Assembly (NCBI GenBank): GCA_019022495.1
Contig: JAFEKR010000009.1
Location: forward strand, 310,001-374,000
DNA from: Epichloe hybrida
Taxonomy: Eukaryota; Ascomycota; Sordariomycetes; Hypocreales; Clavicipitaceae
DNA length: 64,000 nucleotides
Direction: 5' to 3'
The position numbers were made by a program, and so were the translations under genes. Shown here in pieces: positions 17,959 through 64,000 of the stretch (its first letter is position 1; every line of letters begins with the position of its first letter). The notes beneath the pieces were generated by a model that had not been told where the DNA came from, did not search any database, and was given only the letters and a program-made list of their open reading frames with translations.

Positions 17959-18290
17959 CTTGCAGATATAACAACACACTTAGACCTAGCAAGCTTTAGT
18001 TAATATACGAGTGCCCCTATACCTCTTGCCTAGCTATCCTTTGTTCTCACACTTATTGTCAGGGAGAGCGCCCTTAAAGCCTAGGATATAAGAGGGCAAC
18101 GCGCACTAACTAGGATAAAACCCTCTCTAAGATAATAGGTAAATACAAATATATCAGAAGTACCTCTATAAACTAGTTATAACTATAGCATACTATATGC
18201 CTTTTAGGTATAGAAGTTAGGTGCTATTTATACCTTTAATTAACTAAATTAAATATTTTTATTTACTTATATTAACCTCTATGATAGAAC

Positions 18291-22499: not shown

Positions 22500-25400
22500 C
22501 TCTTTAGTATACTTTAGGTTTATATATATAAAGAGAGAGATTCTAATAATAAAAATACTTCTAAGGCCTCTTTCTTTATAGCTTCTATAGCTATTACTAA
22601 TAATAAGGGATTAGTAATCTTAGGGGCTAACTTTATTATAAAGGTATAAGTACTTAGTAGCTATATAATAAATTATTTAAGTTATCTAAGTAAATTAACT
22701 TTATTTTCTAATATCTTAAGTATATTAAGTTATAAAATATAACTACCTTATATTAACTTTATTACTTAGCTATTACTTATAGTTATTAATAATTTCTCTA
22801 GTAATAAAATCCCTTTTTAATACCTAAGAATTCTTTAAAGTATTATAGCTCTTTTATTTAACTAGATATTTATAATACTTTCTATTATAGTAGTATAAAA
22901 TAATTCTCTTAACTTTAAACTCTTATTTATTATCTTTAATAGTATCTTATAATAAGAATATATTTTCTATATTTATTAGGTTTCCTTTAAAAGGTTTAAG
23001 ACTAGTAATATTAAATATATTATATAATTAAGTTCTAGGTAGTAATTTTAATTAATATACTAATGTATAACTCCTAATTACCTTTTTAATCTTATAAGGC
23101 CTTATATACTTTATAGCTAGCTTATTACTAGGGTGTCTTAGGTTAATATTTTTTATTAATAATAAAATATAATTACTAACTTTAAACCTTATTAGAGTTT
23201 TTTTCTAATTATAATATTTTTTATACTAAGTCTATAAGTTACTTAAAAGTTACTTAATTATAGTATGCTTTTCTTTTAGTACTAAAATCCTACTTTTAGC
23301 TTAATTATTTACTAAAGGGATATTTACTATTACTTACTATAGACCTCTAGGATTATAACCTTATAATACCTTTACTAGTGTGTAACTATATATTAAGTAA
23401 TTACTTATATTATATATAAACTACGCTATTAATAGGTTATTTACTTAATTAGTCTATTTAGCATAAGTAAAAGCCCTTAAATAATATTCTAAGACCTAGT
23501 TTAAACGTTTTATTTAACTATTTATTTAGGGGTAAAAAGTAGTGCTAAGTAACTGCTTTATTATAAGAAAATAATAAAAAGTTATCTAGAAATCACTAGT
23601 AAATATAAAACCTTAGTCTATTATAATACTTTCTAGGGCTTTATAGTCTTTAAAAATATATTCTAAGAACATAGTTACTAGCCTATTACTAGTTAGTTAT
23701 ATTAAAATAGGGATGTAAATACTGTATTTTATAGAATAGTTAATAATAACTAAAATTACATTATAAGTCTAATTTAAATCTTTTACTAGTAAAAGTCTAG
23801 TAATAAAATCTATTAATAATTCTTAAAAGGGGTAATTAAGCACTAGTAATATAGCTAGCTTACTATATAGTTTATAATACCTTAGTTTTAAAGTCTAATA
23901 ATTTATATAAGTACTAATATATACCTTTATATCTTTCTTTATTATTAGCTAATAATATTAATTTATAATCTAATAAAGAGTTTTACTTACTCCTTAGTGC
24001 CTAGTAATAAGGTTATTATAAGTTAGTAATAAAATTTCTTTTCTTATACTTAGAGAAATAAAAATATAATTCTTAAATATTAATAGCTTAGAGAGTTTAA
24101 TTAACTATATTTAGGATATAGATATATTACTACTTTTAAGTAACTTTAATTAAGCTATAGTAAAGTCATTACCTTACTATACTTTATATAATAAGACTTA
24201 AATTAGGGGTTTTAATTCTAAGCTCTTTTCTAGAAAGTTAGAGTTAAACTTAGAAAAGGTTCTTTAAATAAATTAAATTCTAGCTATAATATCTCTATAA
24301 GTAATTAGTTTAATAAATACTTCTAGTCTTATAAGGATATAAATAAGTAATATTTTTAAGGGGCGCCCTTATTACTTACTAGTAATAACCTATACTAGTT
24401 TATCCCTATTAGAAATAGCTAGTCTAATAGGAAAATTAAAATAATTAAGTAATAAATAATATATATACTAGGTACTAATAGTATTACTATAGCTAGCTTA
24501 TTACTTATTAATAAAAGTATAAAAAGTATTAAATAACCTTACTAATATAACTCTTCTAAGATTATCTAGATTATTAGGTTCTTTAGGAATATAGTTAAAG
24601 TTATAATTTTTTAAAACCCTAGATATTAGTAATATTATTATAGTGTTATTATTGTTAAAAATAAGACCTATTTTTAGCCCTTTCTAGTTAAAGGACCTTT
24701 CTATTACTAGCTTGCATTACAAGCCTAACAGCTGCGACTGACTGTGTGGATGACTAATCCAAATCAATTATCAATTGTGAATTATTCAATTGCGTTGTGG
24801 CTACAAGCGCAGCCACAACCATAACGCCACTAGTAATTAGGTAAGCTAGGGTGACGTAAGCAGGTTACCCTATAGCTATCTTTAACAGCGATTTTCTCTT
24901 TAACTAGAGGTCGTACAAAAGTCTTGTATATAGCAAATTAAAGCTAGAAGACAGGGCTTTTATTTTATGCAGGAATATTTTTTAAACTAAAATTTAGTGC
25001 ATACGGGTTGCTAGTTTGTATGGTGGTGAGTCGATTTTTTGGATTTTACATACAAATGAATTTTGCGGAAAACAAAAAGTAGCCTATAAGACCTTTTTAG
25101 CGGTCTGGATCCACTAATACGGTTAGTAGGTATATGAGAGGAAGAAGATCTTTTCAATCTAGCTAGATAGCTAGGCCTCTTAATCTAACAGCCGCATTGC
25201 CTATATAATATCACTAAAATCAATTCTATTAGTATATAAGATATCGTAAAAGTTATCTAGATTGAATTCTATTAGTTGATAACTGCCGAAACCTTCCATT
25301 GCGTTACGTTGAATATTTCAACGTGGTGGTTCTACTAGTCCCTAACCGTAGAGCTGCACCTGTACAGCTGTTGCTAGCTGGCAACTAGCTCCCTACATTT

Positions 25401-28400
25401 CAATAATTATAACTAACTATTAGTTATATTAAGTAATGTTTTTATAGAGCCTATAGCATTAATAATATACTATAGTGTTTTTATCTCTTAGTATTTATAA
25501 ATTTAAATAAAAAGGTAAGAAGTTATATAGGTATAACTTTCTCTTTCCTTACCTTACTTATAAAATCTAGTTTTCTTAAAAGTAAGTTAGTAGGATTTAA
25601 TTTCCTTATATAATATATAATATATAATCTTAAAATTAAAAGAATAAAGCTTATTAAGCATAGTTACTTACTTACTAGTAAGCTTAGGCTTTATAGTAAG
25701 GTACTTATAGTTTAAATAATCTATAATAACTTTAATTATATAAGCTAAATAAGCAAGATAGTGTCTCTATATATAAAAAGCCTCTTAGATAGCTAATAAT
25801 TCACTATTAGGTATTAAATATTATAATTTAGTATTAGTTATTTTCCTTAATATAAATATAACTAGGTACTAGTAACCTAGCACTAATATTATAAGTATAG
25901 CCTTAATTATATATCTAGATATATTTGTCTCTACTCTAAGATATATAAGTAAGTTAAAATACACTAAAATTAGCGCTTTCTAAAATCTTTATTAAAGCTC
26001 TCTAAACATTACTAGCTTATAGGGTTTTAGTTTAAATATTACTAGTTAATTCCCTCTAAGGTAATCTATTAATAAGATAATAACTTTACTATACCATTTA
26101 ATAAAATAGTAATAAAATCTAGTAAAACTAAGAAATAACTAAATATTAAAAACACTATATAGTATTAGCTAAGTTATAATTACTTTAACTCTTACTAAGT
26201 CTATTATAATACCTTTCTTTAATATCTTAAAGCCTAAAAATTTAACTTCCTTAACTAAAAATTAACACTTCTTAAGGTTAATAAAAAGACTTATCTCTCT
26301 AAACCTATATAAAACTTATTTAATATACTTTATATAATCTTTAACCTTACTACTATATATTAGTATATTATCTAGATAAATAATATAGGTCTTATTAATA
26401 AGTCCTTTAAGAGTATTATTAATATACTCTTAAAAAGTTACTAGTATATTAACTAGTTTAAATAGTATTACTAGATATTTAAAGTAGCTATATTAATAAT
26501 AAAACACTATTTTCTACTTATTACCTAAGTAAATATATAGCTAGTAATATATATCTTTTAAATCTAGGACTATAAAAATAACTACGCTTACTAATTAATT
26601 AAGAATTTTAGTAATAAAGGGTAAAGAAGCCTTATTCTTAATTATAATCTTATTTAAGCCCTTATAATCTATATAAAGCCTTAATTTCCCTTCTTTCTTT
26701 AGAATAAATAAAATTAGGGCTTTAGCTAGGCTAACTAATCTTCTAATTTACCCTTTAAGCTATATACTTATAAGGTACTCTCTAAGAATCTCTAGCTCTC
26801 TCTTAGCTAAATTATATATAAGCCCCTAAGGTAATGTTTTCCCTTTTTCTAATTTAATTATATAAGTATAACCTCCTAGTTTAAGAAGCTTACTTACTAA
26901 CTCTTTAGAAAAAATATCTATAAACTCTCTATATTCTTCTAGGATTATTAGTATAAGGCACTTAGTGCTCTTATCCTAATTTAATATAGCTTCTTTACTA
27001 CTTATATTTTCTAAAATTAGTATAACTATAATACCTTTACTTTTTTACTATAAATAAGCATACTCTAGGATTTATATAGTTACTTTACTATTTATTTATA
27101 TATCTATTATTACTAGGTCCTTTAATTAGCCTTTTCCTTTTTAATTTTTATTTTCTAGAATACTTAGCTTAATCTTTATTACTTCTAATAATAAAGTAAC
27201 TACTACTATTTTTTTCTCTTTATATACTTACTACTTACTATAAGTAAAGGAAAGATATTTTATTACTAGATATCTCTAGTATTTATACTCCTAATATATA
27301 ATTATAGGTAAATATTCTTTAATCTAGTTTATATCTAGAATTATCCCTTTATCTATATTAGTAATAAAGTAACTAACTTAGTAAACCTTTATAAATCCTA
27401 TACTATCTTTTATCTTAACTAATTTTTTTAGAATTCCTTAATATAAAATTACTTTTTTACTTATACTCTTTAATATTCTATCTAATTAAATTATATTTTC
27501 CTAATCCTTTTTTAATAATAATTTTAGATAAATTATTAAAGACTATATACCTATATTAAATAGCACTTATATAGCTAACTACTAGTTATCTTATTATAAA
27601 GATACTTATATTCTTATTTTATTATCTATAGGGTATTCTATAGTAAGATTATATTCCTAGGTTTATACTAATTAAACTAGTATTATATTAGGAGATATAG
27701 CTTTATTATTACTTTCCCTTATGCTTCTTAGTTATATATTTAGTACTTTTATAAGTAAAATAATCTAGTGCTTAATAAGTTAGTATAGTATACCTAGGCT
27801 TTTTATATTTATAGTATACTAGGGATAATCTTTTCCCTTAGTCTTTACTTTATTACTATGCCTTATTTATAAGTAATATAAAATAAGAGTATTACCTTTT
27901 TCTTTTAAAGTCCTAACCTTTTTTATTATTCTAGCCTTATAGTTAGCTTTAGGTTATTAAAATCTCTTAACTAATTATTTACTTCCTTATAGTATTATTT
28001 AAGCTATTTAAAAAGATTATAATTCTTAGATATATAAGGATTTCTTTAGGTAACTTAGCTTTTACCTTATCCTAATATATCTTTTACCTAAGATTTAGTA
28101 ATAACCTTATTACTTCTAAGTATACTTATATTTATTATTCTAGTTTTTAACTATTCTAGAAAATTTACCTAGGTAATTAATAAATAATCTATATACTATT
28201 ATAGCTATATAATATATTTACTATTACTTTATATTACTAGCTAGGTAGCTACTTATATATACTACCTTAGTTATATTATCCTTAAAGGTATAGTAATCTA
28301 ATTTAAATAGTATATCTAAGTTTACTAAGAAATTCTATAGGCTTTTATATATTTCCCCTTTATATATAGGCATTTTTATCTATATTTTAATAAGACTACC

Positions 28401-28870
28401 TTACTATATAATTACTACTATATTACTATAAACTATAGGTAAGATTATAGCTAATATTTAAGAAGTAATTATAAGTCTAGATTAAGGGGTAATTATAGGT
28501 CTAGTTTAAGATTTAACTAATCCTAGATTTGCCTTAAGCTCTCTAATTTATGCCTTTATTTATAAGATCTATTATTTTCTCTAAAGGTAATATAGCTTAG
28601 ATTATATAACCTTATAGCATTACTATGATACCCTTTTTTCTTTAGTTATATTATCTATATCTTTACCTAAATTAGGATTAAGTAGTATTTATTACACCCT
28701 ATTATTATTTATAGTTCTAGATTATAAGGGTTCTTTATTTTCCTAATTATCTATAGCTTTATTATTATAAGGTACTAGTGTGTTTCTTATAAATCTTTAG
28801 AGTATTAGCTATATAATAATCTAGCTAATAGTTTATATTCTTAAAAAGGTTAAGAGAGATTAATTTATTA
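22500..28870 (-). mobile_element. Ty3/gypsy LTR retrotransposon relic, RIP-mutated
   Basis: On the minus strand the order of decayed domains fits a gypsy element. Gag and protease-like sequence lies at about 27500-28300. Reverse transcriptase at about 26350-26400 reads YIIYLDNILIY, the catalytic YLDDIL with the second Asp turned to Asn. RNase H is at about 25550-25950 (ETNISRYIIKAIL ... NSELLAIQEAFQY). Integrase core is at about 23350-23620 (STTFHPQINSQIKRLNQ-like after ignoring stops). Stops correspond to Q codons hit by C-to-T. A 0.7-kb less damaged island splits the RNase H to integrase part. The right end abuts the zinc-knuckle exon with no LTR recognised. It cannot encode a working product. 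Confidence 0.75.
24700..25410. repeat. less-mutated island inside gypsy relic
   Basis: Base composition here is clearly less AT-rich than the surroundings. The segment contains perfect palindromes, GTTGTGGCT/AGCCACAAC (24794-24819) and ACGTTGAATATTTCAACGT (about 25303-25321). One end reads TGTAGGGAGC on the minus strand, like a retroelement LTR start. It may be a younger insertion such as a solo LTR. I could not define a target duplication. Confidence 0.45.
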
Positions 28871-28875
28871 TCAGT

Positions 28876-29151
28876 CGAGATTGTCCAGAACCGAAGGACT
28901 GTACGTATTCTCGCAGTTTTTGAAACGTAAAAAAATCGACCAATACTGACCTTACCACAGGGAGCAAAGTGCAATGCTCCAACTGCCAACAGTACGGACA
29001 TACCAAGGTGCGCTGTAAAGAGCCTCTTGTGGAAGAGGATGATGGCTTCGGTCAAGCTGGTGACAACTCGAATGCCAACGGCGGCGATTCTTCCTGGCCT
29101 TCTGGTGATGGAAACACGGAAACTGCTGCCGCGGCAGACTGTGGTTGGTAA
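28876..29151 (+). pseudogene. 3' remnant of a zinc-knuckle (CCHC) protein gene
   Basis: Two exons remain: up to 28900 and 28961-29151, with an intron at 28901-28960 (GTACGT donor, CCACAG acceptor). Joined they read RDCPEPKDWSKVQCSNC and on to the knuckle C-x2-C-x4-H-x4-C (CSNC, YGH, TKVRC), then an acidic Gly/Asn/Asp-rich tail ending in GW. This is the usual C-terminus of fungal multi-knuckle nucleic-acid-binding proteins (CnjB/Gis2-like), which carry many CCHC units upstream. Upstream of about 28872 the sequence is RIP-type AT-rich DNA with a stop at 28861-28863, so the start and most knuckles are absent here. The 5' part was searched for left of the block and not found. Probably non-functional. 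Confidence 0.75.
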
Positions 29152-47522: not shown

Positions 47523-48450
47523 TGTCAGTGCAGGAATGACGGCACTCGGCTTGAGCACGTTCCGAGGAGAGAAGTGATGTGAAGTGAAAGGATGCGAGGT
47601 CAGAGTTGAAAAGATACGATGCCACTTCCTAAAGGTTATTCTGTGGTGGCGGCTGTCTTGAAACTGGGGTCTCTGTGCATTCTGGACACGGATTCGTCGT
47701 TGCCGGCGACGCCATTCAATTGGACAAAGCGCAGGATGTGAAGCAAACAGCTGCAGCACTGCAGCAAGGGCAGCAGGAGAAGGGGGCCAGATTTCCAGTT
47801 TATTAACAAAGCGACTGAGGCCGGGGACAAAGCTATGTGAGCTCCTGAAACATGGAAGCAAGCGAGAGTTGTATGTACGTCAACGTCGATGGGTAAGGGG
47901 GGCAGGGGGCCAGGTTCATGAACAGAAGCCGACGTGGTGAGCACGAATATGGGGCGATGCGACTAGTAAATGATGCTGGACGATGCCGTTGTTGTCGCCG
48001 AAGCGAGACAGGGTCAAGAAGTCTCAGAGAACACAGAAGCGAGCAGACCAACGGACATGGCAGTGAATCGCGGACGAGGCTGCCAGTAATTATCCAGAAT
48101 TGCAGGTGACTTCACTCTGTGCTGCAGCTGGCGTCTGGCCGTCTGGCAGCTGGCAGCTGGCAGCTGGCATCCGGCAGCTGGCATCTGGCGTCCATCTAGT
48201 CCGTACTCCGTACGTTACGGATTACTGGAGTCGTTTGGATAAGCAAAATTGGACTAGGGCTGGGAGATGAGTGGGAACTTGTTTGTTGGACTCGAGAAGA
48301 TACTGCATGTCATTGGCGCTGGCTGGCGGGGTTATCTTGGCTGGCCCTGGCCCTGGCCCGCCCGCCATCCCTCCACCTTGTCCACCACTGCAAGACAGAA
48401 CAGAAATGTTCCCAGCCTTGATTCGGCGCTCCTGCACTGCGCCGAGGGAC
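47523..48450. other. upstream region of the disordered-protein gene
   Basis: No separate gene is supported. The minus-strand frame continues upstream of 47522 without an ATG and likely represents 5' UTR. A GGCAGCT/GGCATCT minisatellite lies at about 48127-48190, and an exact GTACTCCGTAC motif lies at 48203-48213. Confidence 0.5.
48127..48190. repeat. degenerate (CTGGCAG)n minisatellite
   Basis: Seven or more units of CTGGCAG and close variants (CTGGCAT, CCGGCAG) occur in tandem. Confidence 0.8.
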
Positions 48451-48460
48451 CGAGGGAGGG

Positions 48461-48981
48461 TGAATTGCTCGGGGCGCAGCGATTTTTTGCTAGGTGCGCA
48501 GAATACCCCACCCGCCCCGCTTTTTAGGCGGTCAGGCCCGCCGCCATACCCCATAGTACATTTACAGTACAAACGTATGGCAGATTTACTGAACACCAAA
48601 ATCAACAAATTTTTTAACAGGTCTTTTCCCTTTAATTATATCACAACCTACATCGCAATAGATAAAAGAAATTAACGCCGCTGGCAGCGAGGAGCCCCGT
48701 CCTCTCAACAATCGAATACCAATACAAATAACAGGCAAAGAGGAATAATTAAAGGACAGGGCTCTCTTAAGATTAAGGAATTTATTCTTTTAACGCTATT
48801 ACTGCTATTATAGCTAATAAAATGCGCAAGCACATTTTCATTTAATTAAGGGCATTTGCTACCATATGTTTGTACTGTAAATGTACTGTGGCTTGTGGTA
48901 ACGGGGACGCTAGTCCAAAATCGGGGCGTGGTGGGGTATTCTGCGCACCTAGCAAAAAATCGCTGCGCCCCGAGCAATTCA
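48461..48981. mobile_element. non-autonomous Mutator-like element (MITE) with long TIRs and 10-bp TSD
   Basis: The 521-bp element is bounded by identical 10-bp direct repeats CGAGGGAGGG (48451-48460 and 48982-48991). Its ends are inverted repeats of about 125 bp. The outer 52 bases are identical (starting TGAATTGCTC), and similarity continues inward, including a perfectly shared AGTACATTTACAGTACAAAC block. The interior is AT-rich with no transposase. Long TIRs plus a 9-11-bp target duplication fit the Mutator superfamily. Perfect outer TIRs and TSD suggest a fairly recent insertion that escaped RIP. It lies between genes and disrupts none. Confidence 0.88.
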
Positions 48982-48991
48982 CGAGGGAGGG

Positions 48992-51521
48992 GCACCCTCA
49001 CCATCCAAATGCGAAATCCTATGCTCGTGCATATGAACCAAAAAGTTGCGTCTCTTATACGAGAGTATGCAAATGCGTACAAATATACCTCTACGCACGC
49101 ACATTTCATTCGCCCACGCACTCGCCTGGATGTAATGAGCTGCAGCTGCAGCCGAGACTGATAGGACGAACTGTGCTTGTAACGATTCATCATTTCGCGC
49201 TGCCCTCTACAGGATTTTCTGCGGGCCAAGACGAATCTGCTAGATTCAGGCAGGAGATACTCGAATAGCCACTGGCACTTCTTGTTCTGGAAGCTCAGCT
49301 CTGTGTGTTCCGTCGGCTCGTCAGCATTACAGACAGCATTCTTGCCGGATGCTCTGGCGTCGAGCCCAGCGCATTATCATAGATGGAATCTTCTTGAATC
49401 CAACGATTCTAGACAAGCTCAGCAAATAAAGCTGCGGTCATCTCTTGGCAATGAACCTTTCTCACCTCCGCCAAGAAGACTGATCAATGCTCGCCGTCAG
49501 GGACAAGCCATGAACGATTTCTGCTCTGCTTTACGCAACAACCTATCGAAAAGAATTGAGATGGGCTCTTTGGGGGTGGGGGTGGGGGGGGGGTTGTAGA
49601 GTCATTGAAATCATCGTCTGTGAAGTTAAGCGACACGCTATCGATGAGCCAGAAAGCTGAATGCTGCAAAGTTGTAGAAAACACCCTCACCCTCTTTTCT
49701 GAGAGTTACTACCTAGTACCGAACCGATATTACGCGAACCGGCAAGTCTCAAATATAGGCACGAACTTACACCAGCCAAAGCCACGGCTCGACCACCGGT
49801 GCCGGTTGCAAGCTTGGACGAATCCTTGAGAAAAGACGAATGTCTAGCCTCAAGAGGAAGAGAAGCCGTCAGCCGTGACCCCGATAGTGGTCTCAAGGCG
49901 TTCTTTGGTCATTTTACAGGGACGAGTTCGGCCACGCAATGCAAGACGACGCAGGGTTTGTGGCACGCAACCTCGTCGGATAAGCAGTTGGATTCGGAGG
50001 TGGCACGAAAGACACAAACAAGAAGTCAATCATTGTCCATCGGCCGCATCCCCGAAGCCAAGGTTCATCCTTTTATGCTGCGGTCGAGTTTTGCCTGGAG
50101 ACTCGCAATCGCTTTGGCTGGCACCGGCACCCATGTGGCTCCCGAGTAGCGACGACGACGCAACAGGCAGCGTGGCATAGAGTATACAATCATGATGTAA
50201 GAGCAGAATAGAAGAACAGTCTTGAATGTGCATGACCTTAGTACGAAACTGATCGATGAAGATTGGTGGACACTGTAGAGGCTACATGAACAAAGAGCTA
50301 GGGAAAAAGCATGTACGGAACTTCTACGGATACGTCAGCAGAAACATGGAGTTTTTTGCATGAATTGAGAAGTTTTCCATCGAAAAAAAGTCCGATGCGC
50401 TCATCATGCTGAGTCGACGAGCGTTAACAACCCACATAGCGCAGATTCGGAGATCAACGGCAGAGCTTCTCCGTGACGTTGCCATCCTTGCACAACAGCA
50501 GCGCCGCCAAGCATCGCGAGAGGCTCATTTCGCAAAACAAATCCTTGGCGCCGATCCTCCGGAGATGCTATCCTTCCCCGCACAGATCGACGGATGAAGG
50601 GCAATGCCCAAACTAATTGTGAAACAGACAGGACGCACGTCATTCAGATCCGCTCTCGCGTTGCGGACTCGGGTCCGCTGATGGCCCTGAATTATCAATA
50701 CCAGCCCACGCCTTTTTACCGAAGAGACTTATTCTTCAGCTTTTGTACGAACATAAATACGGATTACCTCGGAAGATAGACGAAAAGGAGCAACGCAACG
50801 ACGAATAACAGCACACTGTGGTGTCTCGCAGTGAAACACGCGGGCTTGCACAGTACGACTCGCACGGAGCCACCCGGAAGGAAGGCGCCACTTGAGGGGT
50901 GGCATGGAGAAGGAGCGCCTAAAATAAAAGATTTCCCTCTTCATCACTTGTGCTAAGTTGTTGGCTATGACGCGGCCGAGGCCGGAATACAAAGATGTCT
51001 GTTCTTCCCATCCATCTGATCTTGCATTCCTGAGCATGGTCCGGCGCTATCATTGTCGCCAGATTTAGAAGCGCTGTTATCGGGATGAACAGGTAAAACA
51101 GCCACAGGCCTCTACAAGTCGTTTTGGGGAAAGCGGGTGATGCCACCGTGGATATTTTGGTTTCGTACGGAGTACAGAGGAGCACTCAAGATGGGATTGA
51201 ACAGGGGGGCTGTACTGACTAGTCGGGCCTTTTTGTCTGGTCAGCAAAAGTCGCCATGCGAGGCAGAATAGGTTGTAATTAGCCAAGCAAACGTTGTCGG
51301 GACCGTCCGTGACCAGAAAAAAAAAAAAAAAAAAACTTCCGTGCTGCGTGGCTGAGTGTCGTCCGTCAACTCCGTACGGACTGTACTCAGGTTGCAGATC
51401 CATCGGGCGGACAAAGTGGCCCTATGACGACAGGCAAACTGGCGCAGCCAACAGCTGGTAGGTAGTATTAGGTGCGTGAGTGTTGGACCGCGAAGCTAGG
51501 GTTCAATGTGATCGCATCTAT
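48992..51521. other. gene-poor stretch between MITE and AT-rich block 2
   Basis: I see no gene I can support in 2.5 kb of normal base composition. Short frames exist. For example, plus 50406-50597 has a Gln/Ala/Arg-rich helix-like sequence, and 49282-49599 is Ser-rich. None shows a domain or consistent splice structure. Features are a G-run near 49577, a poly-A tract near 51318-51336 and GTACGGAGTAC at 51165-51175. Possibly decayed genes at the flank of the repeat block. Confidence 0.45.
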
Positions 51522-51734
51522 TGAGTTGTCTAACCCTATAAGAGGGCAAGGATTACGGTTTAAATACCTAAGTACCTTTACTATTAGTAAGGTACTAATA
51601 TAGTACTAAAATATACTATAAAGTTATAGAGGTCTTAGAAAATAACTAGCTAAGGGTAAACTATTATCTTAGCTAGTTAAGTAATAAGACTATTATATAG
51701 TAAGGGTAGATTATACCTTTATAAGTATAACACA
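51522..51734 (-). mobile_element. Ty1/copia 3' LTR
   Basis: Read on the minus strand, this 213-bp segment starts TGTGTTATAC directly after a polypurine tract (CTCCTAAGGGGG) and ends ACAACTCA, giving the TG...CA termini of an LTR. It closes the copia relic. Host-like sequence resumes beyond 51522. Confidence 0.7.
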
Positions 51735-52083
51735 CCCCCTTAGGAGACCTTATTTAAGGGCTTTTATAATAAATCTAAATTAATAAAATTAGTTAAATTA
51801 ATTTTATAGTGTAAAAAAGTAGTTAATTTATTATAATCTTATTTAAATTAAGGTTATTATATAATACTTATTCTTTAGGTTTTTTACTAAGTATACTAAA
51901 GGGTAGTTATATAAGCCTTAATACTTTATAGAAGCTTATAAAAGCATTTCCTATAAAAGGCTTTATAAGGCTATTAGTAATTATTTCTTTAGTAATAATC
52001 TAGGTAATATTAAAGGTTTCTTTTATAATCTCTTAATAAAGCTAGTAGTAATAAATATCTATATAGTAAAGCTTTATAATAAG
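51735..52083 (-). mobile_element. copia relic, C-terminal RNase H part (distal to hAT insertion)
   Basis: The minus strand reads KLYYIDIYYYQLYQEIIKE (one stop taken as Q), the decayed form of the copia RNase H tail TKLRHVDIH..LRQEV. Then come a few more codons and a polypurine tract before the LTR. It continues the fragment at 61952-64000. Confidence 0.75.
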
Positions 52084-52089
52084 CAGAGC

Positions 52090-52155
52090 ATGTAATGTAA
52101 TGTAATGTAATGTAATGTAGTTTTTGGGGTTTGGATGTAATGTGTAATGTAATGT
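52090..52155. repeat. left subterminal (GTAAT)n array of the hAT
   Basis: Tandem TAATG pentamers just inside the left tip, with a GGGGTTTGG interruption. Similar arrays lie inside the right tip. Confidence 0.85.
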
Positions 52156-52879
52156 TAGGGAAAAAAAGTGGGGTATATTAAGGTCTTATAATATTATATA
52201 GAATTTTCTCTTTAAGATTAATATTAACCTTTTTCTCTTACTATTTTTTTTAAAATTACTATAAATTTTCTAAATTTCTTATATTTTAGATTATTACTTA
52301 TAATTCTAGGTATAGGGTATTATAAGTAAGATAAATACTTAAATTATATTCCTTATTTTTTTTCTATATTTCTAGGTATTATAATACTAATAAACATTTT
52401 TTCTAAGTATTAATATTAATTTATTTAGGATAAGTGTTCTTTTTACTAGAATATACCCTATATATACTTTTAGAAATAATGTTAAATAATATATTATAAA
52501 TTCAAATAATTAGATCAAAAGATTATAAAACATTTCTATAATAGCTTTTATTTTTCTTTATTTAAAACAAAAAACTTAGTCTAATATCTATTTTATTATA
52601 ATTAATATAAAATATTTCTAATATTTATATTTTCTTTTATACTTTTTTTAAATTTATTACTTAAAGATTAATACTTTATTTATAAAGAATTCCTAAAATA
52701 TTAGTAATAAAAGAAAAATATTTATATAATATTAGTAATATAATTTAAAAAAGGCTTTATTTATTATAATAGCTTTTAGGTATAGAAACTTATTATATAA
52801 TATTATATACTATTTTTAAATATAGTATTTAATTATAATAAATTTATAGCTTCTTCTATATTAGGCAATATAAGATATA

Positions 52880-53243
52880 TATAATATAATTAGTATAATA
52901 TAATTAGTATAATATAATTAGTATAATATAATTAGTATAATATAATTAGTATAATATAATTAGTATAATATAATTAGTATAATATAATTAGTATAATATA
53001 ATTAGTATAATATAATTAGTATAATATAATTAGTATAATATAATTAGTATAATATAATTAGTATAATATAATTAGTATAATATAATTAGTATAATATAAT
53101 TAGTATAATATAATTAGTATAATATAATTAGTATAATATAATTAGTATAATATAATTAGTATAATATAATTAGTATAATATAATTAGTATAATATAATTA
53201 GTATAATATAATTAGTATAATATAATTAGTATAATATAATTAG
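52880..53243. repeat. 14-bp satellite, about 26 copies
   Basis: An essentially perfect head-to-tail array of AGTATAATATAATT. It lies within the hAT, left of the transposase. Uniformity despite surrounding decay implies expansion after RIP. Confidence 0.95.
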
Positions 53244-53833
53244 AAAAGACTTACTATACTTAAAATTAATACTTTTTTATATAGAAAATACTTTTTTATA
53301 AATAAAAATCAATTATTTCTTAGTAAAATTCATAGAAAAAGCTATAAATTAGCTAGATTTATATAATTTTAAAGCTATAGGTATACTATTTTAATTTTAT
53401 AAAGTAAATATAAAAAAGTGAGTCTTATGTGGTTCTTATGTGGGTCTTTACTAGTTTCATTAGTCTTATTAGACTATTTAGTCAATTGCGTCATTTATGA
53501 CCTACTTGCTTAGCTAAGTGAAAAATTTTTTAAGGAGGGGTATTCCTTTACTTTCTCTTTTCTTTCTTCTTTTCTCTTTTCTTTTTACCTTAGTGAATCC
53601 AAAAAAAACATTTAGAAAAACCTTTACATAGTTAAGCTAGTTGTGTTTACTCTTGTTTTTATAATCTTTTTACTTTTTAAATAAGTTACAAAACCCCTAA
53701 AAAAAACAAAAATCAGGAAAAATCAGGAAAAATCAGAAAAAATTAGGAGAATTAGGAAAATTATACCTTTGAAAATCTGCAAAATCTACAAAAATCAGAG
53801 AAATCGGAAAAAAAGACCTAGACCCACTTCACT

Positions 53834-56800
53834 ATGGATTCCTCTTTTTGCCCCTTAGATAACGATTCTAATGCTAGTATGCCTAGCCTTTCTAGGCCTA
53901 GCTTACCTTCTAGGCCTAGCTTACCTTCTAGGCCTAGCTAGGCTAGCCTAGCTTTAGGGCCTTCTTAAACAAGTAATCTTCTAGGATTATATGAGAAAAC
54001 CCTTAAAAATTAACAAGATTACGAGTTTTCTTTAAAAGCATATATTTTTACCTATAATTTATTTAATTATTAGTTATCTAATATTAAATATAATAAAGAA
54101 AGGGAAATTATATGCTTTTATACGCAATCTAAATGTAATTTTACGTTTAGAAGCAAAGCAAAGAGATTCTAAGCTTCTAATAGGGTTTAACACTATTGAA
54201 TTAAGCATCTAGAAATTGCTACTTCTAAATCAGAAGAAAAAAAACCTAAAAAGATCATTAGTAAGTCTTTTATTCTATTTTATTCTATTTATTTTAAATT
54301 TTAAATAATTAATTCTATACTAACTATATATCTAGTACCTGAAATTCTAGTAGTATTCACTCTTACTAATTAGTCTTCTTTAACCTCTTTTTTTTTAACA
54401 AAAAGACCTCGAAATCATACTATTTTAGAGGAATTTTCATCTGAAGAAGCAGTTAATCTAGTTATTAAATTTCTACTAGAAAATAACCTTTCTTTTGCTA
54501 TAAATTAATAGTAAATCCTTTAAAAATTTACTAAATTATTATTTTAGGTAAGTTAATTCTTTTCCTATAACTATTATAGTTATTTAAGCTAATTTATATA
54601 GGAATAATAATTTAGCTTCTTTACTTAGTCACCGAACAATAATACATAGAATAAATACTATGTATTATTTATCTAAGCAAAAAATCCTCTAATAAATCCA
54701 ATATTAAATTAAACATTAAGGTTTAATTTCGGTTTAACTAGATATTTGGACTTTGTTTAATTCAAAGTCTTATCTAGGGGTTAATATAAGCTAGCTTAAT
54801 CTAAACTTTAAGCTAGAATATAAGCTAATTAGTAAGTCTTTTAATTAGTATTAATTCTATTATTTACTAATTATTTTACTTATAGGATTTGAATATCTAT
54901 CAAATTTACATATAGGAGCTTATATTTACTAATGCTTTAATAATCTTATTAAAGACTATTACTTAGAGCTAAAGGATATTCTTAGGTAAGTTATTTCTTT
55001 AAATATTATAACTATTATTACACTTTAATTCTAATTTATATATAGTTTTACTAGGGATAATGGTTCTAATAATAATACTTTTATAACTTCTTATATTAAT
55101 AAGAGTTATAATAGTATTAGTATTAAACCATATAATATCCGATGTATAGCTCACGTTCTTAATATCGTAGCTAAGGATATTATTATGAATTTTATTAAAT
55201 CTATGTCTTCTAAGGAAGACTTAGAAAGTTTTAAAAATAGTGAATATCTTCACTATTCTACAGAAGAAACTTCGTATATCTAAGGGAATCCTGATTTTCA
55301 ACAATTTAAATCCTTAGCAAATGGTAAGTAATTAATCTATTATTCTTTACTATTTTTTATCTAATAATGCTAATATTAATTATAGGTATACTAGGAAAGG
55401 TTAAAAGGATTGCTATTCTAATTAAAAATAACCAAGCTTTATATAAAACTTGGTTAAAATGCCTTAGAAAAGCAAAAACATAAGGTAACCTAGCTAAGAA
55501 TTGTAATATTACGAAGATTCCTTTAGGTAAGTCTTTAATTCTTATTATAATTATACCTAATACTAATCTATTATATTTATAGCTAATGAAATAAGGTGGA
55601 ATTTAACCTATAAGATAATTAATACTTCTTTAGAGCTTAAAGAAGCTATTATTCTTCTTAATAGGGAAACTAATATTGCTACCCTTAAGGATGCTATGCT
55701 TACAACACAAGAATAGGCTAATTTAGTAACCTTAAGCAGTATATTAGAGGTTTTTTATGAACTTACTATTATACTTTAAAGCTAGAAGTATAATACTTTA
55801 GGTCTAGTCCCCCTTTTTATTACTAAGATATATGAATATCTTAATAATATAAAAGAGGACTAAAAGGCTTATAATAACTAGGTATTTATCTATTTTACTT
55901 TCTTTTTAATTATATTATACTAACTTATAAAATTAGAAACACGTTTATAATCCTTTTAGTAAGGACTTTATAGCCTCTATAGATATTAGCTTAGAAAAGC
56001 TAGGTAATTATTTCCTATAAGATATAGGAAATAATTACCACTTTTATAAGCCTTATTTATATGCTATGTTATTAGACCCTAGGCTTAATCTTATTACTAT
56101 AAAAGATAAGCTTGGATTACAATTAAGAACAATTAAAAAGTTACTAGATAACTTAGAAAAGGATTATAATTCGTAAGTATAATGTTTATTATTATTATTA
56201 TTCTTATTACTAACTTTAATACTAGGCTTCTTCCTACTTATAAGGAAAATCAGGCTAATTTAGGCCTAGGGCTAGGCTTAGATAATTCAGAGCCAGAAAA
56301 TACCCAATTTCTAGTAGAAATTGGAGGGCCTATTTAGCCTAGAACCTTTTCTAATCCTTAACCTAAGCCTAAGTCTTCTAACCTCTATAAAGGGTTATTC
56401 TTAAATGAGAGAGATAAATCTATTTAAAAAACTTAAAAGAATGAAATCCCTACTTTTACTAACTTAGAACCTAAAGAGGATAAAGTAAGTAAATATTTCT
56501 TCCTATTATATCTTATTATTATACTAATATTATAATAAAGGAAGATATCTTTAAATGGTGGGAAGATAACCAAAAGTCTTTCCCTATTCTAAGTATAATA
56601 GCTAGAAGATATCTAGCTATTCCTGCCACTTCTAGTGTAATAGAAAGCACCTTTAATACTAGTAGGAATATTATTACTAAGCGCCGAACTTCCTTAAAAC
56701 ATTTTACAATTAAGGAACTAATTCTATTAAAGAATTAGGAAAAGGAGGATAATATTGCTACTAAGCAATACTTAGAGCTATATAACTATTATAGCTCTTT

Positions 56801-56950
56801 TTCTGAGGATTTAGATACTATGTCTTCTTTAAAGGAAAAAGAGAAATTAGATAAATCCCAGGATTTATCTAGTTTTTTCTTCAGAAGATATATATTCTAA
56901 CTTAGACTAAGTAAATCTTTAGAAGGGTTTTTTCCTAATTTAGTCTAGTT
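53834..56950 (+). pseudogene. decayed hAT transposase (BED finger to hATC domain)
   Basis: The frame begins ATGGATTCCTC at 53834. It is followed by a Ser/Pro repeat and a BED-like finger (ICFYTQSKCNF, then H-x3/4-H). Further on is RNase-H-fold core sequence, and at 56520-56750 comes an almost undamaged hATC dimerisation region, WWEDNQKSFPILSIIARRYL then AIPATSSVIESTFNTSRNII. Several GTAAGT donors followed by TATAG acceptors (for example near 54545, 54985, 55322 and 55527) indicate multiple introns. Stops occur mainly where CAA/CAG Gln codons would have become TAA/TAG, consistent with RIP. Catalytically dead as it stands. Fewer stops than the gypsy relic, so it may be younger. Confidence 0.8.
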
Positions 56951-56992
56951 TTCCCTTAATAAAGATTTTTATATTATTATAACTACTAGTAT

Positions 56993-57185
56993 AACTATTA
57001 TTATAACTATTATTATAACTATTATTATAACTATTATTATAACTATTATTATAACTATTATTATTACTATTATTATTACTATTACTATTACTATTATTAT
57101 TACTATTATTATTACTATTATTATTACTATTATTATTACTATTATTATTACTATTATTATTACTATTATTATTACTATTATTATT
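56993..57185. repeat. 12-bp (ATTATTATAACT / ATTATTATTACT)n satellite
   Basis: Two successive variants of a 12-bp unit directly after the transposase remnant and directly before the LINE-like fragment. Confidence 0.9.
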
Positions 57186-57189
57186 AGGA

Positions 57190-59480
57190 CCGAGAACGAG
57201 TCATTAGAACCGAGAGAAGAAACGCGTGGAGAGACGCCCTACAAAAGGCTAATACGTGGAGAAAGGACAGGGGAGCGTGAAGACTAGAGAGATAGGCCTA
57301 GCTCTGAAGCTAGGCCCCCCTAGAACTACCTAGGCTACTAGAGCTAGAAAAAACTAAAAATAACCTAAACCTAGCTACTATATATAAGGATAAAGTAAGC
57401 GTGCTAGCACTAAGGTTCTTCCCTAAGCCTATAGTAAACCTCTCCTAAATCCTAGACCTTACCTTCCTAGAGCTAGATAACACACTATTCCTAGATAATA
57501 ACTAGTTTAGATTAGAAGAGATATTAGATATTATATTAGATATAGCTAGCTAGAAAGCACTAGGTAATAATAAGCTCCTAGCAGGCCTTATTAAGGCCTG
57601 TAATAAGCTAGTAAAAGAAGCTATAGTCTAGCTCCTAAATACTATCCTTAAAGTAAGGTATTTCCTAGCCTAATTCTAGACTACTAGAGTAGTAGTAATT
57701 AGGAAACTAGGTAAGATAATAAAAGAGATAAGAAGGGCTAATACTTAGAGGCCTATCTCCTTACTAAATATTATAGGAAAAATTATAGAAGTAGTAATTA
57801 TAAAGTAACTTATAGCCTTTACTAAGGTAAAAGGACTTCTCCTAAAGCTATAGATAGGGAATAGGATAAATAGGTTAATAAAGACTATAATTAGGGTCTT
57901 AGTAAAGTGTGTAAGGGAGGCCTAGAGTAAGGGTAAAATTGCCTTACTTACCTAGATAGATATTTTATTTACTTTTAATAAAGTTAGCTACCTATACCTA
58001 ATTTACTTACTAATCCTAATAGGAATCCCCTACTAGCTAATAGCTATAATATAAAGCTTCCTAGCGGATAGAATAAGCTAGCTTAGCTTTAATAGAGGAC
58101 TCTCTAGACCCTTTAAGATTAAGGCTAGTACCTTATAAGAATCTCCCCTTTTACTAATTCTCTTTCTCCTTTACTTTATAGAACTTTATATATACCTCTA
58201 GACTATCCTAGGCATAGTAGTAATTAGATTTACTAATAATATAAATATTATAGTATTTAGTAAAAACATAGCGTAAACCTAGAGAAAACTTAAGGTTACT
58301 TAGAAGATTTATAAGGAATAAGTAAAGGAGGTAGGAGTAAAGTTTAACCTAGTAAAAACTAAACTTATATACTTTAGTAAGGCCTATAGGCCCTTATAGG
58401 CTAGGGTCTAGCTTAGTATAGAGAAAATAGCGCTAATAAAGGCATGCTAATTCCTTAGGGTATAAGTAAATAGGAAACTTAACTAAAGCGCTTATAAAAA
58501 CATCCTTAAGGGAAAACTAGCCTAGTAGTGGCTTACACTCTCTATATTAGTAGCGTTAGTATAGGGCATTAGCTTTAGAGATACCTAGCTTATATACATA
58601 TAGGTAATCTAGCCTATTCTTACCTATAAGGCAAGCGCTTACTATACCCTAACTAAGAAAGGAGGAAAACTATAAGGAATAGTTAGAAGTTTTATAGTGG
58701 ACTAATTAACCTATCTCTAGACTATAGCTAGAGTATTTAAGGCTATACTAATTGCTTAACTAGAAGTTAAAACCTATATCCCCCCCCTAGACCTTTACCT
58801 AAATAAGATAAAGTAAAAGTTTAAGAAAAGGATTATACTTAGTAAAATAATAAATAAAATACAGGCTATAGCTAACTTAGTGTAAATAGTACTATAATGT
58901 AGAAGAAGACCCTTACTTACTAATAATAAACTAGATATATAACTATATAAGGAGTAAAAGAAAAGATAGGAAGACTAGTATTCTAATAGGTAATAGAGAT
59001 AATATAAGCGTAGGAGAGAGCTAATAGAGGACTGCTTGCTTACCTATAACCTAAAGGAAATCTAGAAATTTCACACTAGGCTTAATAAGCATATCTCCTC
59101 TATAATAGTATAATTATATATAGGAAAGATTAGCCTTAATAAGTTTCTCTTCTAAAGGCATGTTCCTAGGGTAGCTTTGCCCCTATATAGCTATAGTTAT
59201 ATAGTTAAAGATTAGTACTATATAATTATTAACTACGCTAACTATAACTATAGACACCCTTAAATAAGATAGCCTAAAGATATATAGGAAGTAAGGCTAG
59301 CCCTAGATAATCCCCTAAAGGCAAGATATATTATAAAGTAATTCCTTAGCATAAGAAGACTCTAATACTATATATTAGCATAAGACCTAGCCTTTAGTTA
59401 ACGTAAACTAGGGGAGGATCTAGGCTACCCTAGAGGTAACTAAACTAACTAATAAATAGACACTGTAAATAACTAGAGAG
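57190..59480 (+). pseudogene. 5'-truncated LINE (Tad-like) reverse transcriptase remnant
   Basis: Plus-strand reading, ignoring RIP-type stops, gives the reverse transcriptase of a fungal non-LTR retrotransposon. RPISLLNIIGKIIE is at about 57748, then GLSRPFKIKASTL and PLLLILFLLYFIELY. The catalytic box RFTNNINIIVFS (about 58226-58262) has both Asp changed to Asn. Downstream KTYIPPLDLYLN is the usual Tad-clade motif (AETYTPPLDLYLN-type), then a decayed Cys/His tail near 59170-59260. No endonuclease domain precedes it, so it is 5' truncated, as common for LINE insertions. It sits inside the hAT element and is non-functional. Confidence 0.72.
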
Positions 59481-61500
59481 AGGCACTAGGTAAAATAGTA
59501 TAGCCATAGAGGTAAGCTAGATATAAGGTAAAATCACACTATAATAAGAAGACTATAGGTCTAAAATAGTTATTAGATTAATTTTAAGTTAAAAAACTAT
59601 AGGTATTATTTCACACTAGCCTACTGCTGCCCCTTTACTAACCCTAAATTAGCCCTATTTCTCCTTAGGAATAGGGATTATATTCTCTATTACCTTGCTC
59701 TTACCCTTAGCTAATAGGCTAGTAGCTAGGAGCTAGTTTATCTCCGCTACTTAGGCATTAAGCTACTAGAGCTAAAAGATAACCTTATTATATTATTCCT
59801 CTGTAGACCTAGACTTAGCTAAGTCTAGGCTTACTATAGTAACGCCCTATTTCTTCTTAGTATGGTTTTTAGCATAGAGTTTCTTAACCTAAGCTATATA
59901 GTCCTTTAAGGCCTAGATAATTAAAGTTAGCTATAGAATAAAGCTACTACTAAGCTAGAGTAAAATTACTTATATTACTCCTAGTAACTATACTAGCCTA
60001 GGTCTTAACTAACCACTAATATTCCCCTCACTAGCTAGTAATATTTAGCTATAAGCAGATTAGCACTAGAGTAAGCTTAGAATAGGCATAGGAGTTAATA
60101 TTACCTTAATATATATATAATTGCAAACCTAATAATTAAAATAAGCATTAGATATCACCCCTTTATATGTAAATTAGCCTTACCCCTAGACTAGAAATAA
60201 ACTAACTTACTAATAACATTATAGCACTAATAGCCCTTATTTTTAATAAATTATATCTTATAGGACACACACTAGATCTCTTATAGCTTACCTAGCTACC
60301 CTAGGTTAGACCTAGAAATAAGGTAAAATAAAGGTAAAGGGAACTTACTTCTAGGCCTTTTGCCTTTACCTAATCTAATTACTTCTAGGTTAAGGACTTC
60401 CTTAAATACTTATTTAAGGTTATAAGTTCCTAGGTAAGTTAGAGCTAGAATAGCACTAAAAATAAGGTACTTATAGAGCTTAGTAATATTATAGTGTGTT
60501 TTTCTACGTAAAACATTAGTATTTAAACTAGCACTAGACTAGAGAAGCCTTAAATAGCTCCTAAAAGGGATAGGAAGGAAAAGAACCTATAGGAAATTTA
60601 TTATAAGAAGAGACAAAAGGTTAAAACCTTAAGGGAGAAGGAGCTCTCTTTTATACTTAAGAGAGAAAGGGGGGGGGGACTAACTATAATATTAGCTAGA
60701 AAACAAAGCATAAGATAAGCAAACGCATAGATAGCGCGTAACTAATCTAGGAGCAGAACCGCCTAGACACTAGGCCTAAATCACCTACCCCTTACTATAA
60801 TTAAATAAAACCATATACTTAGACTTTATAAGATATCTAGACTAGTGCTAGGTTAGATTTAGCTAAAAAGTAAGGTACTAAAAGAGTTAGAAGTAAAGCA
60901 AATAAAAAGTAAATTATTATTATAAATCTAAATTCACTACGCCCTAGGGCAAAGTAAGAGACATAGAACTAGGTTAAAGCAAGACTAGACTAGTACTAAA
61001 GGGAGTTAGTTAGGACTATTACTATACCTTTTTCTTTTCTTTTTTATTTTCTTTAGGATAAGGCTAGCGTAAGCTAGCACTAAACACCTACAATTAATTA
61101 CACCTAATATAGCGTAGACCTAGGAGAGGGTTAGCGCTAGCCTATTCACAGACGTAAGGGGGTTTTTCTTCCTAGCAAAGGGTTTTCCCTCTTAACTAAG
61201 TGGATAGAGTACTAGGAACAGCTACATAGTTAGCTAACTAGCGTAAAGAATATATACTATTATTATTATTTAAAAAAAACATAAAAGAGAAAATATTTTT
61301 ATAATATTAATATTTTTAAAAACCTTAAAATACTAAATACTTAAAAGATTTACTTTTTCCTATAGTAAATCCCTTATACTTACTTATATTCTTATTTATA
61401 TATTTTATTTTCTATTCATTTTTTATTAAACTTTAACACTAATAATATTATAAAGTAATATAAGCTATTATAAGCTAAACTAGTATTAGTATTAAGCTAT
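59481..61500. repeat. unassigned AT-rich decayed sequence inside hAT
   Basis: No domain recognised with confidence on either strand. A minus-strand piece near 59600-59830 is LINE ORF1-like in composition only. It could be the LINE 3' region or further nested fragments. A CTAACTAG-rich, less mutated stretch lies near 61030-61250. Confidence 0.4.
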
Positions 61501-61510
61501 TATAATTTAT

Positions 61511-61686
61511 AAGCTATTATAAGCTATTATAAGCTATTATAAGCTATTATAAGCTATTATAAGCTATTATAAGCTATTATAAGCTATTATAATTATAAGC
61601 TATTATAAGCTATTATAAGCTATTATAAGCTATTATAAGCTATTATAAGCTATTATAAGCTATTATAAGCTATTATTAGCTATTAT
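61511..61686. repeat. 10-bp (AAGCTATTAT)n satellite
   Basis: About 17 copies of AAGCTATTAT with one interruption near 61590, inside the right arm of the hAT. Confidence 0.93.
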
Positions 61687-61769
61687 ATATGTTTATATAT
61701 ACTCTCTTAACGCTTATAATTAAAGCATTTACCTTAAAGAGAAAAATAAAAAATAATTACAAATAATTA

Positions 61770-61945
61770 CATGTAATGTAATGTAATATTTAGGGGTTAG
61801 GTGTAATGTAATGTAATGTGTAATGTAATGTAATGTAATGTAATGTGTAATGTAATGTAATGTAATGTAATGTGTAATGTAATGTAATGTAATGTAATGT
61901 GTATTAAATACATTACATTACAAACATTACACAATGTAATGCAAT
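61770..61945. repeat. right subterminal (TAATG/CATTA)n arrays of the hAT
   Basis: Tandem TGTAATG units on the plus strand, then inverted CATTACATTAC units just before the right tip. They mirror the left subterminal array. They are probable transposase-binding repeats, as known for hAT elements. Confidence 0.85.
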
Positions 61946-61951
61946 GCTCTG

Positions 61952-64000
61952 ATAATAAGCTTAATAAACTTTTCTTTAAGAAGGTAAATTATTTATATAT
62001 TATTATATTTAATTTTAAGTATATTATTACCTAGGCATAGCTTAATCTCTTAATATAACTATCTAAAGGCTATAAGCTCTTTACTATAATATAAAAGCAC
62101 TATAAGCTTTACTTTAGTTAATAATATAGTTATAGTAGCTTACTTTCTTACCTTAAAGAGTATAAGTCCTTTAAAGAGCTTTATAATATAATCTTATAAG
62201 CTCTTTTATATTATAGTATTATTAGTAAAGGAAGTATTACTATAGGCTTTTAATTTAGGGTTATTATTACTATATTTAATTACTAAGTTTACTTATATAT
62301 ACCTATACTCTAAGGCTTTTTTTATTACTTTTATATACTATAGCTTTAGGTATTAGAGGTATTATAAGAGTTATAAGGCTATAAAAGTAATATTAAGTCT
62401 TAAAATAATTATTAGATATAGTAAGGTTCTAACTAAAGATTAATACCTCTTAAGATCTTATATACTAACCTTTTCTTTAAAGAGTTTTAATAAAATAGTA
62501 ATTATTAATACTATAAGCCTTTATTATAGGATCTTTATATTAAATTTAGTAATAGCTTTATCCTAGTAAGACTTCTAATTAAGCTATACCTTTTAGTTAG
62601 TATAATCTCTAATAATTTTAATACCTAGAAACTATTATAGCTCTCTAAGGTCTTTAATATTATACTTGGTAAAGAGTCTTACTTTAAATTTATTATATAA
62701 ATATAATTTTCCCTTAGTAAATAAGGCTATAAGGTTATTTATATAGAAAAAGATAATTAGACTATTTTTAATAAATATATAAGGGTCCTTAAAGATTTAT
62801 ATAAAGCCTTTAATAACTAGCTAGCTAATTAGCTTTTATTTATAAAAGAGGTACTCTTTATAGCTTATAAACTACTCTAAGAAGCTTTAGGTAAGCTTAT
62901 TTATCTTTATAGCCTAAGGGTATCTTATAGTAAACCTCTTTATTAAGGTCTAAATTTAGGAATACTATAATAAAGTTATATTAGTATACTTCTAGGTTAA
63001 AGTAATATATAATAGCTATAAATAGCCTAAATATATTAGTAGCTAGTGTTATTACTTAAGTTAATAAATAACTCTTTAGTTAATAATTCCTAAGAATATA
63101 AAGATAAGCTTTATATTATAGGAGGTAGCCTTATTTATCTAATTTATAGGAAAATACCTAAGTAAGACCTAGAAGCTTTATATATATAAGGATATTAGAT
63201 CTAGCTACCTTTATAGCTACCTTTCTATTAATAATCCTATTAAATTCTTTATCTTATACTTTATAGAATTCTTTTTCTTTTAGATAACTAGCTAGATTAT
63301 TATAATAAGCTAAAGGAGGAGAAAGCCTAGATATATAAGGCTTTTCTTTACTCTTAAGTCCTAGGGTAAAAGCTACTATAAATACCTTAAGATTATTATA
63401 ATCTTATAGATTTATTAATATATTATAATTGTTATTACTATTAAGTAAGTTAAGTAAATTATAAATACTTAATAGTATATAATTTATAGAACCTAGTAAT
63501 TATTTAGGTAAACTTAGAGGAGTTAGTAAATTTAATTCTTAACTTCCTTTTTCCTTTTCTTTATAATCTAGTTAATTATAACTAGTAGGAGTTTTAACCT
63601 ATTATAGCTAATCCTATAGTTATTATAGTAATAAAGGGTATACTATTTATAGAAGCCTTATATTAAGGCTTTTATCCTTATTATCCTTAACTAGCTCTTT
63701 AAGGCAGTGTTTTTTAACCTCTTTTATGATTAATAATAAGCCTCTTTCTTAAGCATGAAAGATAGACTTATTAAAGGTAATATAGCTTAATAAGAACTAG
63801 TAGTTTCTCTTTATTATTAGTATCTAAATTAGGTATTACGTAGAGAAAATATATTTAGTAAGGTATCTAATATAAGCTCTCTAAGCAAGCTTTAGACTTA
63901 CCTTATAAAGGTTACTTTATATTATTATAAATACTTTATAACTATATACTTATAAGTAATTTATAAAGGCTTCTAGCTTCTCTAGTAAGTAACTCTATTA
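61952..64000 (-). mobile_element. Ty1/copia reverse transcriptase/RNase H relic (continues past window)
   Basis: The minus strand carries decayed copia pol. LLRVVYKLQRVPLL (from LLRALYGLRRSPLLW) is near 62900. LIIFFYINNLIALF (YVDDL box, both Asp now Asn) and IKDLRELQQFLGIKI are at about 62600-62800. YSNTSFTNNTIIQKSLQDYI, VRKQATITILLTKVKLI and YSKELIAFRQLYQEI (RNase H) are at about 62030-62330. Stops replace Gln codons. The frame runs up to the hAT target site and resumes at 52083 to the left. The 5' portion lies beyond the window. Confidence 0.82.

Follow-up and report, generated by a model that had tools for sequence, protein, structure and literature searches.

Evidence for a LINE nested in a hAT transposon that is itself nested in a copia-like retrotransposon of a fungal genome

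Restless, the hAT transposon of Tolypocladium inflatum, is 4097 bp long, with inverted repeats of about 20 bp at its ends and an 8-bp target duplication, according to the consulted part of its description (PMC10992017). The hAT element described here is, like Restless as presented in that part of the paper, a fungal hAT of a similar order of size with inverted repeats and an 8-bp duplication (PMC10992017). Compared by description, the two differ in that the perfect tip repeat is here 8 bp long and is followed by TGTAA arrays. Subterminal short repeats like those of our element occur in Kat1 and at other hAT ends, and the Kat1 paper, in the part consulted, speculates that repeated short motifs inside the ends help the transposase (PMC4763223). 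Kat1 is, however, domesticated, and its motif and organism are different. Hermes, an insect element, resembles our hAT in the C-terminal dimerisation region, over about 70 residues compared. The other two elements of the locus are decayed copies of known kinds: the first is like fungal Ty1/copia elements in its weak RVT_2 signal, putative LTR edge and apparent RNase H order, and the second is a LINE with a weak RVT_1 signal, which we take to be Tad/I-like. A search of the literature found, among the papers listed, no description of this hAT family, which would be a new family of a known kind.

Throughout this report, “the window” means the whole stretch of 64,000 nucleotides that was analysed. 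We conclude, with a probability of about 0.94, that it contains three transposons nested one inside the other: a LINE in a hAT element in a copia-like retrotransposon (Table 1). In the proposed order of events, the copia-like element would have landed first, on the minus strand, adjoining a gene-rich stretch, with its outer LTR edge at 51481. A hAT element of about 5.8 kb net would then have entered the RNase H region, and the staggered cut usual for hAT elements would have left a copy of the 8 bp ATAATAAG at either end of it. Finally, a LINE with its 5' end cut short would have entered the TTA-type microsatellite of the hAT, probably by target-primed reverse transcription. The locus is an ordinary case of nesting among known kinds of transposon, in an apparently RIP-scarred fungal genome. 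A preliminary description of the same DNA overlooked both the third event, the LINE, and a short non-autonomous hAT family, to which we return below.

Table 1. Positions of the nested elements and their parts within the window
Feature	Position	Strand	Remarks
Copia-like LTR retrotransposon, distal part	51481..52083	-	LTR edge TGTTGG... at 51481; C-terminal part of RNase H adjoining the hAT
Copia-like retrotransposon, proximal part (RT and start of RNase H)	61960..64000	-	runs off the window; RVT_2 pieces in L031, L028
hAT target-site duplication, left copy ATAATAAG	52076..52083	.	single copy at 28 empty sites
hAT target-site duplication, right copy ATAATAAG	61952..61959	.	single at empty sites
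hAT including nested LINE	52084..61951	+	9868 bp; about 5.8 kb without the LINE
hAT left tip CAGAGCATGTAATG and subterminal TGTAA array	52084..52160	+	same kind of tip in sister copies
hAT right subterminal TGTAA array and tip CAGAGCATTGCATTACATTG	61771..61951	-	
14-bp minisatellite in hAT, 26 copies	52880..53243	+	
Open transposase piece, C-terminal dimerisation domain	56493..56735	+	PF05699, Hermes
hAT microsatellite (TATTATTATTAC)n, LINE target	56972..57186	+	continuous in hAT copies without the LINE
LINE, 5'-truncated relative to nine other copies	57187..61256	+	4.07 kb; CTATTATTATTA on both sides

The genome searched comprises 79.9 Mb in 156 contigs. Within the window, GC-rich gene blocks alternate with AT-rich ones, which lie at about 18-29 kb and beyond about 51.6 kb. 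The first of these (18000-29000, GC 19-34%) lies between gene-rich stretches and perhaps consists of more decayed repeats. One protein of the window has its best match at 55%, and the leading matches include two Hypocreales, Trichoderma virens (53%) and Drechmeria coniospora (50%), from which we place the DNA in a filamentous ascomycete close to this order. The stretch 47900-51242 is collinear with C1:4064467-4067715, mostly at 78-80% identity, and the cytosine methyltransferase loci of this genome form two pairs that are 91-93% alike; the genome may be hybrid or have two diverged subgenomes. An Rfam scan of the window gave nothing at gathering scores.

Similarity to most of the copia copies listed starts at 51481. 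The sequence TGTTGGACCGCG at this point is common to 21 other fetched loci (22 matches), and the 12 bases preceding it differ among the loci, apart from two duplicate pairs. Because a shared start is thus combined with differing flanks, 51481 is taken as the LTR edge, a check that covers one edge, with TG at 51481, the far copia end lying outside the window. In a paralogous copy elsewhere in the genome (L031), the pieces match RVT_2 with an E value of 8.1e-6 at best (26.0 bits, below the Pfam cut-off of 31.6), and no RNase H family of Pfam was matched by its RNase H pieces. These pieces nevertheless carry ...LLKEEFIKLITKLQHVDIHYH and then LHQEVTKGTFNITWITTKEIIADSLIKPL, in the order of what we take to be the copia RNase H motifs, and matching peptides can be read in that phase from the flanks in the window, interrupted by stops. 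The LTR edge and the reading of L031 through the junction bear out the earlier placing of the insertion in the RNase H region of a copia-like element. We blame the decay of the elements for the scores below cut-off, both here and for RVT_1 in the LINE.

The 8-bp duplication ATAATAAG and the inverted tips CAGAGCAT (52084-52091 on the plus strand and 61944-61951 on the minus strand, perfect over 8 bp) lie exactly where they had been reported. The duplicated sequence by itself is not rare, with 20 matches within the window, and duplication and tip together (ATAATAAGCAGAGCAT) occur twice in the 79.9 Mb. The second such site (C124:861207, L001) has no copia alignment. Next to its tip, it matches the right-hand array stretch of the hAT (61507-61785) in minus-strand orientation. 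This site, probably a further hAT end preceded by the same eight AT-rich bases by chance, was left out of the count.

The order of the first two insertions can be read from copia copies that lack the hAT. The right flank (61960-63460), used as a query, gave at least 42 matches, with 40 of 191 candidates scored, and 30 copia loci were cut out of the genome, including the window itself (L003). Among the 29 others, 28 run across the junction of the joined flanks without a gap there and have a single 8-bp site; the remaining one (L030) stops short of the junction. Two pairs among the 28 (L010/L011 and L020/L021) have their flanks in common, and each pair is probably one locus that was assembled twice. 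Indels in these alignments are mostly of about 20 bases near window 51800, away from the junction. With the empty site present in 28 of 29 loci, the view that copia came first and hAT second proved right, and the adjacency of the two copia parts was borne out, in this case by comparison with paralogous copies from the genome in place of a consensus element.

The preliminary description had also claimed that excision of the insert restores the copia frame. On the minus strand, the right flank ends in ...LLKEKFIK in frame 0 and its final codon is complete, the left flank goes on as LIIKLYYIDIYYY in frame 0, and L031 reads LLKEEFIKLITKLQHVDIHYH across the same junction point. The phase therefore stands. 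The open frame does not, as there are stops within the reading: the earlier translation “KLYYIDIYYYQLYQEI” has Q at in-frame stop codons.

That the insert is a hAT element, as first proposed, was upheld by its transposase domain, by its likeness to Hermes and by 8-bp duplications in other copies. The open piece of the transposase matches PF05699 (Dimer_Tnp_hAT) with an E value of 3.7e-18 (65.5 bits, cut-off 21.4) and Hermes (6dww), by sequence, with an E value of 5.9e-10, whereas three other open pieces of the hAT matched no hAT family in Pfam. The transposase gene is broken by stops and probably also interrupted by introns. Across the genome there are 127 matches to PF05699, and the right tip (20 bases, up to two mismatches) has 122 matches, against one for a reversed control. 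A query with the transposase part found at least 11 other nearly whole copies at 90-98% identity, with 40 of 204 candidates scored. Both ends were sought in 11 long copies (ten near-whole copies and one broken copy on C124) and located in six, five of which have 8/8 duplications (CTTCTAGC, ACTATAAC, TATATAAA, CTAAGATC and CTAGCGAG); copies that share the hAT ends and carry 8-bp duplications, predicted earlier, thus exist elsewhere in the genome. The flank bases of the long copy on C113 match at 5 of 8 positions, and in five long copies the left tip is absent from the stretch fetched. The copies with perfect duplications measure 5622, 5228, 5073, 5611 and 13735 bp. The longest (C102:2969861-2983595, with its ends in L090 and L058 and the duplication CTAGCGAG) exceeds its sisters by about 8 kb, presumably through insertions of its own.

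The same tips also bound short elements. Thirty tip loci were cut out, namely the window, seven long copies and 22 others (two of which overlap), and 10 of these 22 have a partner tip and a duplication matching at 7/8 or 8/8. Because a search by tips can return only copies whose tips are intact, it was repeated with an interior query, for which 40 of 628 candidates were scored. Copies were counted if they matched from query base 1 to at least base 884 at 89% identity or more, a count that leaves out partial matches and a group at about 75-85%. At least 18 near-complete short copies were found, 12 with an 8/8 duplication and two with 7/8; two more are imperfect (C102:3700841 and L053), one lacks a detectable left tip (L040) and one, on C101, has both tips altered. 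A match of at least 7/8 is expected 0.0024 times per pair of ends, given the base composition of the copia flanks in the window. All 14 good duplications differ from one another, and the insertions are therefore independent. We infer that these copies were moved in trans by a hAT transposase. The C101 copy (L114, L115) carries ...CAATACTCTG in place of both tips. This sequence is similar to the end of a second tip family (CAGAGTATTG...), which suggests nesting or an exchange of ends between tip families.

CpA loss is typical of fungal RIP (repeat-induced point mutation). We calculated a CpA index, (CA+TG)/(AC+GT). Its value for the gene region is 1.23, whereas copia stands at 0.08, the LINE at 0.29 and the left part of the hAT at 0.54; the two hAT ends reach about 1.0. 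The copia element, the LINE and the hAT interior thus carry CpA loss of the RIP type, with RIP as the likely mutagen, and the hAT tips lack it. The same division is seen in ten short copies, where CA+TG versus AC+GT is 410/372 in the outer 120 bases of each end and 371/950 in the interiors; one short copy (L055) is milder (107/140).

These values suggest that the ten short copies, with their CpA-poor interiors and CpA-retaining tips, spread after RIP, an argument drawn from one genome, with polarisation by the majority and with arrays that could rebuild themselves. We advance tentatively, as slightly less than an even chance, the further proposal that the hAT family functionally escaped RIP: its interiors are stripped of CpA, its tips and arrays hold CpA, it was moved in trans to at least 14 sites, and its short copies show little fresh CpA-biased mutation. 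An alternative, which we consider less likely, is that the short copies were RIPped separately after dispersal, so that their likeness reflects saturation and their tips were spared by chance or by arrays rebuilding themselves. Saturating RIP does make copies converge, and private C>T changes in the ten short copies are about twice as frequent at CpA (19/750) as at CpT (18/1690). The CpA rate is, however, close to that at CpC (12/550), without a clear excess; in the majority sequence, 50 CpA sites lie within the outer 200 bases of the two ends, where the ten copies together have 6 private changes at CpA; and the 14 differing duplications mark independent insertions. Seven long copies, the window included, have 34/1197 private changes at CpA, 17/1421 at CpC, 6/308 at CpG and 17/3857 at CpT. 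This mild CpA excess over both CpC and CpT, to which C113 contributes 13 of the 34 CpA changes, would agree with RIP after dispersal; under the spread-after-RIP reading, it would represent light RIP-like change that reached the long copies later.

A second alternative is that the CpA loss reflects long-term AT-biased drift in silent chromatin and not RIP. The tips are special arrays of fixed composition, which leaves some room for drift. We regard it as improbable, because it is specifically CA/TG that are depleted when compared with AC/GT (from 0.08 in copia to 1.23 in the gene region) and because the genome has four cytosine methyltransferase loci, two of them RID-sized. These four DNA methyltransferase loci (L130-L133) have no stops in the matched parts; two have open frames of about 650 amino acids (RID-like) and two of about 1200 (DIM-2-like), assignments made by size alone.

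The duplication at the window site touches on the same question. Among the 28 empty copia sites, the 8-mer is ATAATAAG in 25 and a G variant (GTAATAAG or GTAATGAG) in L023, L028 and L031. Because both copies of the duplication begin with A, as in those 25, and not with G, the copia DNA may already have been mutated when the hAT inserted into it, a faint hint that the window hAT may be a late mover.

The third insertion is recognized by what other hAT copies lack. In each of the seven long hAT copies in which this region could be compared (L042, L049, L050, L057, L058, L061 and L062), the bases preceding 57187 are linked to those following 61256 through the TTA-type microsatellite, and the LINE therefore arrived last. 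A query of 57300-61430 has matches of at least 2.85 kb, at 91-94% identity, at no fewer than 35 other places (36 of 1308 candidates scored), 32 of which span at least 3.8 kb. That the insert is a single 9.87-kb hAT, as the preliminary description held, with a long cargo region, is very improbable, although one pair of tips and one duplication enclose the whole: 57187-61256 has these long matches elsewhere, 32 of them nearly whole, and weak similarity to reverse transcriptase, and is a separate 5'-truncated LINE absent from all seven long hAT copies examined, so that the single-element view is refuted unless all seven cleanly lost the segment within the microsatellite.

Nine LINE copies were inspected. 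All nine reach further 5' than the window copy and have a common 3' end, ...AAAGAATATATA or nearly so, downstream of which they mostly differ, although L064 and L068 partly resemble each other there. When stops are read as X, 57620-58519 matches RVT_1 with an E value of 8.4e-7 (29.3 bits, just under the cut-off of 29.6). Seven open pieces of the LINE, scanned separately, gave no reverse transcriptase match, and the window LINE is not among 150 places of the genome scored with RVT_1. It should be mentioned that the 12-bp duplication around the LINE falls in a repeat of period 12 and is no proof alone. One LINE copy (L065/L066) has hAT-like sequence close downstream, and the hAT stretch 61256-61430 occurs near several LINE copies, which had been ranked with a query that contained that stretch. 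A preference of the LINE for the hAT microsatellite was considered and dropped, since the nine copies read have no constant target. In about the first 110 bases of the window LINE (57187-57300), CpG and CpA sites are kept that are mostly lost in the nine others; judged from these sites, the window copy appears less mutated at its 5' end.

Nested insertions of this kind give a firm relative chronology where RIP-like mutation ruins other clocks, and three kinds of evidence cross-check one another here: copia copies without the hAT, hAT copies without the LINE, and sister hATs with other duplications. If the hAT family did escape RIP functionally, RIP would kill the coding sequence and leave elements that are dead as genes but still mobile, and the end-recognition needs of the transposase would act as a filter on the surviving copies. 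If the short copies spread after RIP, they would make it possible to ask in nature whether transposition itself is halted by RIP or whether only the gene for the transposase is destroyed, and which bases of the tip a fungal hAT requires.
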